Below are positions 54,595-56,960 of a DNA stretch of 64,000 nucleotides, in pieces. The position numbers and the translations under genes are program-made. Position 1 is the stretch's first letter; the number at the start of each line of letters is the position of its first letter. Where the stretch lies: contig JAFEGO010000101.1 in NCBI GenBank assembly GCA_018239845.1, forward strand, positions 1 through 64,000. Direction: 5' to 3'. The stretch comes from Verrucomicrobiota bacterium. GTDB lineage: Bacteria > Verrucomicrobiota > Verrucomicrobiia > Opitutales > Opitutaceae. The notes beneath the pieces are model-generated. The model saw nothing but the letters and a program-made list of their open reading frames with translations. It ran no database searches and had not been told where the DNA came from.

Positions 54595-55245
54595 ATGCCG
54601 AGCCTGCGCCAACTCCTCGCCGCCCACGCGCCCCTGCTGCTCATCGACGCAGCCTCCGCGCGCATCCAGGTCGGCTGGCTGGCCAAGGATGAACCCGCGC
54701 GCTGGGCCAACTCCACCGATGAGGCCGGCGTGGGTATCTTCCGCAGCGTCGAGGCCTTGGGCATCGATCCCGGCGCGGCTGGAGCGCTCGTTTTCTGCGA
54801 CGGACCCGGCTCCGTCCTCGGCGTGCGTACCGCCGCCATGGCCCTGCGCGTCTGGCACGAGCTGCGCCCGCGTCCCCTCTTCGCGTATCACAGCCTCGCC
54901 GTGGTCGCCGCCGCGCTCAACCGCCCCGGCACCACCGTGATCGCCGACGCCCGCCGTGATTCGTGGCATGGCGTCGCAGCGACCGTCCCGCCCGGTCCGC
55001 TGCGCCGCATCGCCAGCGCCGACCTCGGCACCGCCGGCGAACTGGTCATGCCGGAGGGTTTCCGCCACTGGACGCCGCTCCCGGCCAACGTGACGCTCAC
55101 GCCCTACTCGCTCGCCGACGTGTTGCCGCGCGTCGCCGACCAGCCCGATCTTTTCCGCGCCACCGACGCGCCCGATGCGTTTCTCCACGAGGAACCGAGC
55201 TACGCCAAGTGGACGCCGCAGCTCCACCGCGCCCCTGCGCCATGA
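54595..55245 (+). CDS. tsaB: tRNA threonylcarbamoyladenosine biosynthesis protein TsaB-like
   Basis: TsaB partners TsaD in making t6A at position 37 of ANN-decoding tRNAs. The 216-residue product has LLLIDAASARIQVGWL as the first ASKHA strand and FCDGPGSVLGVRTAAMALRV, which matches the family signature GPGSFTGxRxG. It then has FAYHSLAVVAAALNRPG and VIADARRDSW. The start is uncertain: ATG at 54595 suits the fold, but ATG at 54538 is also in frame. The stop overlaps the start of alr (ATGA), so the two are coupled. Confidence 0.82.
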   Translation: MPSLRQLLAAHAPLLLIDAASARIQVGWLAKDEPARWANSTDEAGVGIFRSVEALGIDPGAAGALVFCDGPGSVLGVRTAAMALRVWHELRPRPLFAYHSLAVVAAALNRPGTTVIADARRDSWHGVAATVPPGPLRRIASADLGTAGELVMPEGFRHWTPLPANVTLTPYSLADVLPRVADQPDLFRATDAPDAFLHEEPSYAKWTPQLHRAPAP

Positions 55246-56396
55246 GTACCACGCTTACCTCCCGTCTGCCGCTCCGCTGCTGGGCCGAGATAGATCTCGC
55301 CGCGCTCGAGCGCAATCTCCGGCTGATCCGCGCCTCGCTCCCCGCGCACATGCGCTACGTCGCCGTTATCAAGGCCGACGCCTATGGCCACGGCCTGCCC
55401 CAAACCGCCGCGCGCTTGATGCACGCCGGTGCCGACCTCTTCGCCGTCGCCACGCTCGCCGAGGCCGCAGCCATCCGCGAGATCGGTCCCGGCTGGCCCA
55501 TTTTGCTTTTGAGTCCGCTCCTGCCCGAGGAAGACCGCTACCTCGCCGACTACGATCTGGCCGCGACGGTTTCGAGCGCGGAGGAGGTCGCGCGGTTCGA
55601 CGCCGTGGGCCGCGCGGCGGGCCGCCCGATCCCGGTCCACCTGAAGATCGACACCGGTATGGGCCGCCTCGGCGTCTGGCACGAAGAGGCGCCCGCGCTC
55701 TGGGAAAAAATCCGCGCCGCATCGCACGTGCGCCTCGCCGGCGTGTTCACGCACTTCGCGAGCCCCGACGACGATCTCGCGTTCACCGCCGAGCAGCGGA
55801 AGCGTTTCCTCGACGCCCTCGCGCGCTGCCCCGGCCTGCCGCTCGACGATCTCTTCGTGCACGCCGACAACAGCGCGGGCATCGAGACCATGTCCGGGGC
55901 CGGCCTCTTCAACGCCGTGCGGGTGGGCCTGCTGCAGTTCGGCATCTTGCCGCACCCGCACTCGCTGCTCGCGCAGGTGCGCACCGAGCCGGTCTTCAGC
56001 TTCCACACGCGCGTCGGCCTCGTGAAAAAACTCCCGCGCGGCACCACCGTCAGCTACGGCCGCACGCGTACCCTTAATCGTGATACCACCGTCGCGATCC
56101 TCTGCGCCGGCTACGGCGACGGCCTGCCGCGCGCCGCGAGCAACCGCGCCCAGGTCCTGGTGCGCGGCCGGCGCTGCGCCGTGCTCGGCCGCGTGACGAT
56201 GGACCAGACGATCATCGACGTGACGGATGTCCCCGGCGTCGCCGCCGGCGACGCGGTCGTGCTCGTGGGCCGGCAGGAGGGCGCGGAGATTTCCATCACC
56301 GAGTTCAGCGGCTGGGCCGACACGATCCCGTGGGAAACGCTCTGCTCCGTCACGAAGCGCGTCCCCCGCCTCTACCGCACCGCGCTGGGGGTTTAG
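55242..56396 (+). CDS. alr: Alanine racemase
   Basis: It interconverts L- and D-alanine for peptidoglycan. The 384-residue PLP enzyme has the cofactor lysine Lys44 in YVAVIKADAYGHG, HLKIDTGMGRLGV, VRVGLLQFGILP and the second catalytic Tyr in TVSYGRTRTL. The C-terminal beta domain contains CAGYGDGLPR and GRVTMDQTIIDVTD. Length is normal. It overlaps tsaB by four bases. Confidence 0.96.
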   Translation: MSTTLTSRLPLRCWAEIDLAALERNLRLIRASLPAHMRYVAVIKADAYGHGLPQTAARLMHAGADLFAVATLAEAAAIREIGPGWPILLLSPLLPEEDRYLADYDLAATVSSAEEVARFDAVGRAAGRPIPVHLKIDTGMGRLGVWHEEAPALWEKIRAASHVRLAGVFTHFASPDDDLAFTAEQRKRFLDALARCPGLPLDDLFVHADNSAGIETMSGAGLFNAVRVGLLQFGILPHPHSLLAQVRTEPVFSFHTRVGLVKKLPRGTTVSYGRTRTLNRDTTVAILCAGYGDGLPRAASNRAQVLVRGRRCAVLGRVTMDQTIIDVTDVPGVAAGDAVVLVGRQEGAEISITEFSGWADTIPWETLCSVTKRVPRLYRTALGV

Positions 56397-56437
56397 CCCC
56401 GCCCCTCATCATCCTGCGCGTCTCCGCACTCCCCAAA

Positions 56438-56452
56438 GTCCGTAATACGGAC
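56438..56452. promoter_or_regulatory. Palindrome copy downstream of the 56454 gene
   Basis: GTCCGTAATACGGAC is an odd palindrome (7-bp arms, central A). It is the core of the longer palindrome at 56833 and lies between the alr stop and the stop of the convergent small gene. The right flank also matches the other copy (TACGGACATT). Confidence 0.75.
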
Positions 56453-56453
56453 A

Positions 56454-56831
56454 TTATTCCCGGGCACGCTTGCGCTGGTCCAATGGGCTGTTCGTGCGAT
56501 TGAGCCAGAGGAGAAGAAGGAGCGTGCGCTCGGCATCGGGCATGGCAGAAGGTCGGTCAAAAAATTCGGTTATGCGCGAAGGATGGACCGACAGTTCGCG
56601 GGCCAGCAGGGCACGATCACCTCGGCGACGAAGGCGTGCTCGAACGAGGGGAATCAGCGCATTCCAGAGCGGGGTGTCCACACTCGGCCGCAGGGTGGCA
56701 CCACGTTTGGTCCGTGATTTTCCCGGCCGAAAGTTCCGCCGTGCATCGCGCAAGATTTCCTGCGCCGACGACTCCAAAATATCCATCAATTCGAACAGCG
56801 ACGCCAACCGGGGATGCAGGGGTGTATTCAT
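56454..56831 (-). CDS. Small basic protein with putative HTH, possible autoregulator
   Basis: The 125-residue product starts MNTPLHPRLASLFELMDILE. It has a basic middle (RRNFRPGKSRTKRG) and a C-terminal GDRALLARELSVHPSRITEFF that resembles a helix-turn-helix, followed by AERTLLLLLWLNRT. I recognise no named family. An in-frame ATG 18 codons upstream would read through the palindrome at 56833-56857 and is less likely. Copies of that palindrome flank the gene on both sides, one ending right at the chosen start. Binding of the palindrome by this protein is inferred. Confidence 0.65.
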   Translation of the reverse strand: MNTPLHPRLASLFELMDILESSAQEILRDARRNFRPGKSRTKRGATLRPSVDTPLWNALIPLVRARLRRRGDRALLARELSVHPSRITEFFDRPSAMPDAERTLLLLLWLNRTNSPLDQRKRARE

Positions 56832-56832
56832 G

Positions 56833-56857
56833 CCAATGTCCGTAATACGGACATTGG
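56833..56857. promoter_or_regulatory. Perfect 25-bp palindrome at the start of the 56454 gene, putative operator
   Basis: Arms CCAATGTCCGTA and TACGGACATTGG (12 bp each, perfect) surround a central A at 56845. It begins one base upstream of the ATG of the minus-strand gene. An added hairpin TAGCCGT/ACGGCTA follows at 56858-56877. The site could control this gene, the divergent DUF1800 gene, or both. Confidence 0.8.
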
Positions 56858-56960
56858 TAGCCGTCAATAAACGGCTAAAAGGCACCGGTCATATATGCGC
56901 TTCAGAAAATTTTTACCGCCTCCGCTGCAACCCGGCGGGGTGGCCGGCGTCTTTGAGCGC

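Follow-up and report, generated by a model that had tools for sequence, protein, structure and literature searches.

A family of predicted Cro-like proteins in Opitutaceae whose genes lie between copies of a co-varying palindrome

REP and REPIN sequences, which with RAYT transposases make up REPtrons, are short palindromes that occur alone and as inverted pairs, mostly between genes, often after 3' ends and in some cases within genes. According to PMC3733652, GTAG REPs abound in Opitutus terrae, which has the largest number of intragenic copies, double insertions in both uvrA genes among them. The family of P0001, the 125-residue protein studied here, shares the anatomy of REP/RAYT systems, in that the gene is flanked by the matching repeat and the repeat is dispersed singly and in pairs. 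Unlike RAYTs, the partner is a predicted Cro-like helix-turn-helix (HTH) protein of ~120 residues without HUH motif or catalytic tyrosine, and the palindrome is symmetric around a TAWTA centre, carries no GTAG (or CGTC) tag and is low in copy number (up to 52 in the genomes counted). We set the P0001 system apart from REP/RAYT because the defining HUH transposase and GTAG tag are absent; by analogy, it may function as REP systems do, a Cro-like protein standing in for the transposase.

Rickettsia palindromic elements (RPEs) also lie in frame within coding genes that are empty in relatives, a likeness of layout. To our knowledge RPEs have no dedicated protein, whereas the P0001-family palindrome brackets the gene of a matching, probably DNA-binding protein. 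Lambda repressor, Cro, YdaS and the controller (C) proteins of restriction-modification systems resemble P0001 in the predicted HTH fold and in having a palindrome next to the start codon. P0001 differs from them in an extra N-terminal helix and an RG-TLRP-TPLWN arm, and its family differs in having sites on both sides of the gene, dispersed copies and no recurrent partner gene. MatP-matS, SlmA and Noc are chromosome-wide site-specific binders. They too have dispersed palindromic sites irrespective of promoters; the P0001 family, unlike them, is patchy, multi-paralog and fast-changing in specificity, with a self-bracketed gene. A search of the open-licence literature on palindromes and REPs of Opitutaceae and Verrucomicrobia, YdaS operators, Rickettsia elements and REPIN/RAYT listed no paper on the P0001 family. 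We consider it probable that the locus is a one-gene element, that is, a Cro/lambda-repressor-like HTH protein whose own gene lies between palindrome copies and whose further copies are dispersed. Its direct support consists of the bracket, the covariation of helix and site, their co-occurrence, insertion in genes and concerted change of the sites.

The P0001 gene lies on the minus strand of the window, the whole 64,000-nucleotide stretch of Verrucomicrobiota DNA analysed here. Its open reading frame occupies 56457-56831 and its stop codon 56454-56456 (gene with stop, 56454-56831). The perfect 25-bp palindrome CCAATGTCCGTA-A-TACGGACATTGG at 56833-56857 is separated by 1 base from the ATG (56831), and the core copy GTCCGTAATACGGAC at 56438-56452 lies 1 base beyond the stop codon; the two sites are 400 bp apart, centre to centre. 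Palindrome, second core copy and gene were thus exactly where the original prediction had placed them. Its statement that the arms are far beyond chance stood in part: a 12-bp arm by itself also arose when the window was shuffled by dinucleotides (2 of 60 shuffles), and the case rests on the second exact copy, the copies elsewhere in the genome and the brackets of relatives. With up to 3 mismatches allowed, the window contained 5 matches to the palindrome, whereas shuffles averaged 0.72. The 4.23-Mb genome had 6 exact copies of the core and none of a reversed-pattern control, and the sister palindrome GTTCGTAATACGAAC occurred at 10 further places. The codon-usage score of the reading frame for its host was slightly negative (-3.2). 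Despite this it appears to be a real gene, because tblastn found homologs in 102 of 200 family genomes and because dN was far below dS in close homolog pairs, with 0 nonsynonymous and 10 synonymous changes between L102 and L103 and with 2 and 12 such differences between L146 and L148. The position of the upstream site directly against the start codon makes negative autoregulation, also proposed at the outset, plausible.

Brackets of this kind are a regular feature of the family. We collected 108 distinct homologs, 105 of them with full flanks; homologs outside 100-190 residues were excluded from the bracket and covariation counts. A TAWTA-centred palindrome within 250 bp of the gene was present upstream in 75 of the 105, at the place of the window's palindrome, downstream in 65 and on both sides in 61, compared with 11 of 1557 control windows. 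Several of the genes without a scored site (30 upstream, 40 downstream) had degenerate inverted copies by eye. When perfect palindromes of any sequence with one base at the centre and arms of 10 or longer were counted, they were found upstream of 40 and downstream of 35 of 98 genes, and in 0-6% of farther 250-bp bins. The upstream site often lay 10-50 bp before the start codon. In some brackets the gene has on either side a palindrome pair spaced by 42-57 bp; in L137 an identical pair with a nearly identical spacer stands on each side. The single paralog in the window's genome, 41% identical to P0001, is bracketed on both sides by a different palindrome, TTTGTAGT..ACTACAAA.

The palindrome varies together with the recognition helix, which in P0001 is VHPSRITEFFD (residues 82-92; 56556-56588, minus strand). 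Across 81 homologs, helix distance correlated with half-site distance (r 0.63). The correlation persisted when the rest of the protein was removed (partial r 0.60, reached by 0 of 2000 permutations), compared with a partial r of 0.05 for the rest of the protein. High mutual information with the half-site was found at P0001 residues 85, 83, 88 and 89. The helix HRARIGEYF goes with GTTCGTA, HPSRITEFF and HVSRVTEYF with GTCCGTA, HCSRITEYF with CTCCGTA, DPARMTEFF with TAGCGTA, PRQRVHEYL with GTCACGTA, DRQTINAYF with GTCAACTA and PKQRLGDYL with GTAACCTA. The half-sites of the 81 homologs are symmetric and share no GTAG tag, and at least a dozen palindrome classes exist within this one bacterial family. 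Because the palindrome follows the recognition helix and not the remaining protein, P0001-family proteins very probably bind their own flanking palindromes. The covariation and a lambda-repressor-like predicted fold together support the original description of P0001 as a putative DNA-binding HTH protein. Two sets of homologs (L044 and L050; L077 and L155) occupy shared syntenic loci, yet have different palindromes, which suggests vertical inheritance with fast change of specificity. L106, L114, L120, L121, L131, L151 and L160 also lie at shared syntenic loci.

Sequence searches placed P0001 in no known family. The protein alone matched nothing in Pfam or NCBIfam at E up to 1, its best PDB sequence match had an E value of 0.91, and a comparison with PHROGs gave nothing useful; the remark that it belongs to no recognised family holds for the whole of P0001. 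Its relatives touch the YdaS and HTH_3 models, and 66 of 93 members matched the Pfam model of YdaS (PF15943) at E up to 0.1 (best 1.1e-5), a model that P0001 itself did not match. An AlphaFold2 model built with 93 sequences reached a mean pLDDT of 84.5, compared with 49 for a poor first model without alignment. The model is all-helical, with a long N-terminal helix, a basic linker (residues 34-52; 56676-56732, minus strand) and a lambda-repressor/Cro-like HTH domain (residues 53-113; 56493-56675, minus strand). The linker contains SRTKRGATLRPS and is a lower-confidence coil in the model; its R40, T46, L47 and P49 are invariant in a 13-sequence alignment, and it may serve as a minor-groove arm. 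Residues 53-113 aligned with HNF-1A POU, C.EcoT38IS, lambda cI, C.Esp1396I and YdaS at middling VIA-align Z scores of 5.3-7.8, and Foldseek gave E values of 0.46 or worse for the P0001 model. The modelled HTH domain thus appears to share the lambda-repressor-like fold, a shared fold rather than a proven family.

The family is almost confined to Opitutaceae, where relatives were found by tblastn in the 102 of 200 genomes mentioned above; a phylum sample had them in only 16 of 288 genomes, 14 of these in Opitutaceae. Hosts in named records are Opitutaceae, Opitutus, Lacunisphaera and others, some labels being broader or differing. One genome may carry up to 8 paralogs, and the same-genus genome G021 has neither the protein nor its sites. 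At the place in G021 that matches window positions 55242-56940, both alr and the P0001 element are missing; the flanking genes there are, we presume, tsaB-like and DUF1800-like. In G021, alr thus lies elsewhere or is missing. We rejected this place as a clean empty site for the window element, as alr is missing there too.

Dispersed sites occur mainly in genomes with the corresponding protein. GTCCGTAWTACGGAC is present in 3 of the 200 family genomes. The window's genome has 6 copies. G052 has 29 and a homolog with the helix HVSRVTEYF, similar to that of P0001. G115 has 3 GTCCG sites and no matching helix among its homologs that were read. GTTCGTAWTACGAAC is found in 30 of the 200 genomes. It occurs, in 4-52 copies, in all 10 genomes in which a helix of the H-R-A-R type or close to it was seen, compared with 20 of the 190 others (Fisher, 1.3e-9); these 10 are the genomes whose homolog loci were retrieved, and the homologs of the others were read in part. 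Sites and protein are not always found together. The complete genome G020 has 15 sites and one listed homolog of another class, the window's genome (G000) has 10 GTTCG sites and no H-R-A-R protein, and G127, G158, G191, G098 and G035 have 5-33 sites and no matching protein among the part of their homologs that was read. The simplest reading of such genomes, though unproven, is that the gene was lost recently.

The original prediction had proposed a genome-wide search for the site, to find a regulon or a mobile repeat. The placement of the sites, as judged by a simple codon-usage gene caller, does not support a promoter regulon. Of 84 dispersed sites, with some loci represented twice, 27 lay in coding sequence, 32 between tandem, 13 between convergent and 8 between divergent genes, and 4 were unknown; the figures for 51 of the 52 sites of G174 were 15, 12, 11, 11 and 2 in the same order. 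Nor did a DNA comparison of 46 site loci reveal a regulon common to genomes: the same gene with a site was seen only in L172 and L175, the remaining matches being a duplicate entry of one locus and two short ones that lay away from, or within, the sites of a single genome. We therefore find it improbable that P0001 is an ordinary XRE/Cro-type repressor that controls itself and a small promoter regulon, its two sites forming a 400-bp repression loop; these results, and a downstream site nearly as regular as the upstream one, weigh against a reading that the predicted fold and the upstream site, which abuts the start of P0001 and often lies just before the start in homologs, would otherwise favour.

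Many sites lie 10-75 bp past stop codons, and their outer arms are long, perfect and specific to the locus, as could be the case for mere transcription-terminator hairpins without special relation to the gene. Such hairpins are a very remote explanation. A terminator scan was negative at the P0001 locus, sites also lie within genes and before start codons, and the core is common within and different between protein classes. Of 23 sites in coding genes, 20 are in phase 0, where they read VR[IN]TN, and 3 in phase 2; some have variant or hybrid cores. The outer arms differ from site to site, and over 102 sites the pairing rate per step stays at 0.5-1.0, where chance would give 0.28. Between L146 and L148 (94% identity), one palindrome has a flipped centre base, and its outer arms differ in such a way that pairing extends further in one of the two; these changes would fit hairpin-driven mutation.

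A protein that organises or segregates the chromosome, in the manner of MatP, SlmA or Noc, would have sites placed irrespective of genes. The sites indeed ignore gene boundaries, are tolerated in frame within genes, lie on both G174 contigs and track the specificity of the protein. Patchy presence, up to 8 paralogs, fast turnover of specificity and absence from G021 are unlike a core chromosome function, and regional clustering on G174 contig 1 was unclear (KS p 0.058), so we regard this role as unlikely.

Sites frequently come in close pairs. Among 21 such pairs in G174, the spacing was 52-54 bp in 10, 62-63 in 3, 72-76 in 4 and 119-140 in 4, and the 17 pairs under 100 bp were phased at 10.5 bp (Rayleigh R 0.8). 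Elsewhere the spacings were 44 bp in the window's genome, 50, 57, 58 and 92 in G020, and 42, 47, 54 and 57 in others; those outside G174 do not all fit the 10.5-bp rule. The central bases of the G174 pairs were oriented T..A in 12, A..T in 4 and the same way in 5. No conserved motif was found in the spacers of these pairs, only arm tails.

Comparison with relatives showed site-bearing insertions in genes. Seven G174 loci were searched in 21 same-genus genomes and the orthologs aligned; gene names here are our reading of the translations. In G174 an SNF2 gene exceeds its G112 and G160 orthologs by 78 bp, and these additional bases carry a palindrome pair; G488 has a longer insert at the same spot, also with a pair. 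The G174 copy of a cupin gene is 60 bp longer than the empty one of G112. An OGT-like gene is 51 bp longer in G174 than in G482, being empty in both G482 and G483, and an FG-GAP gene exceeds its counterparts in five relatives, all empty, by 24 bp. All four measured lengths are multiples of 3. A second SNF2 gene has a pair in G174 only, among three aligned genomes. The site in moeA, present in G174 and G488, decayed in G112 and absent from G129, involves no change of length, so some sites arose by substitution.

Existing sites change in concert. Among 9 orthologous sites of G174 and G488, 6 differ on both arms, 1 on one arm and 2 are unchanged; the differing arms read AAT/ATT in G174 and AAA/TTT in G488. 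The same distinction holds genome-wide, with AAT..ATT flanks at 44 of 48 sites in G174 and AAA..TTT flanks at 13 of the 15 listed among 25 in all in G488. L075, which we take to be G488 or a near relative, shows the same AAT/AAA-type difference at all three sites around its gene, with one flank 89% identical, and its helix reads KARVGEFF in place of RARAGEYF. At those 6 of 9 sites both arms changed together with the protein class of the genome, so the sites are not just debris but follow the protein. The original prediction had taken many copies scattered without relation to promoters as the mark of a repeat element. Such scattered copies were found, but a passive repeat unrelated to the protein is disfavoured, because the sites occur mainly where the matching protein does and change along with it.

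A one-gene element would most likely operate as follows. The HTH protein, presumably a dimer, would bind the TAWTA-centred palindrome; a dimer at the upstream site by the start codon would repress its own gene and so limit expression, and the downstream site would mark the other edge of the unit. On phased pairs two dimers might touch and bind cooperatively, the pair spacing following the DNA helical repeat in the best-studied genome. Small insertions, in frame or between genes, would account for at least part of the copies and substitution for some others, and copies would come and go, those retained staying in register with the shifting specificity of the protein. Binding, dimerisation, autorepression and cooperation are thus what we infer for a P0001-type protein. 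Candidates for the copying itself are template switching during replication at bound hairpins and a transposase acting in trans. We see as possible, though doubtful, a transposase-free one-gene element in which the Cro-like protein and its palindrome co-evolve through a large number of specificities and the protein itself causes palindromes to be gained or rewritten genome-wide, in frame within host genes too, for instance by stalling replication and thereby provoking template switching at bound hairpins.

Alternatively, the palindromes might be REP-like repeats moved in trans by a RAYT or other transposase, the HTH gene being a passenger that uses them as operators. The REP/BIME-like anatomy speaks for this, as do the differing numbers of a ~90-bp tandem unit in L102 and L103 and the abundance of GTAG REPs in Opitutus terrae (PMC3733652). 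We nevertheless judge it quite improbable, in view of the missing GTAG tag, the covariation of specificity with the HTH protein and the lack of any transposase or other partner recurring beside the gene. Across 98 homolog loci, neither a recurrent partner gene nor a recurring transposase was found. The largest neighbour family occurred at 7 of the 98. These 7 seem to be a single shared locus, as 6 of them also have a second neighbour family in common. The 93 aligned homologs contain no invariant or nearly invariant His or Tyr, and no transposase model was present among the first 25 of the 29 Pfam families matched by members.

If a one-gene element is correct, families of palindromic repeats can be linked to a DNA-binding protein without a recognisable transposase, and the spread of REP-like and Rickettsia-type palindromes could be approached from a new side. 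The family would also offer a natural specificity code, with dozens of recognition helices each beside its own palindrome, for use in predicting HTH-DNA recognition. With many sites changing in concert with one protein, the system would give a rare view of the co-evolution of a protein and its genome-wide sites.

Several further repeats were observed. The closely related genomes of L102 and L103, which share stretches of 89-94% identity, carry a second REP-like repeat of the CATTGCGAG...CAATCC type, apparently unrelated to the palindromes and inserted at different places (L102, 1530-1700; L103, 3280-3560); these insertions away from the HTH gene were therefore rejected as palindrome insertions. 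In the window's genome the motif TGTCCGAT recurs (L006, 1440-1500; L012, 1393-1425), and one copy is the near-palindrome TTGTCCGATAGTCGGACA, directly beside a GTCCG site; the motif is perhaps a further or decayed site class. Behind the HTH gene, ~90-bp units that each contain one palindrome are repeated in tandem, giving four palindromes in L103 (4430-4740) and two in its near relative L102 (4430-4550).
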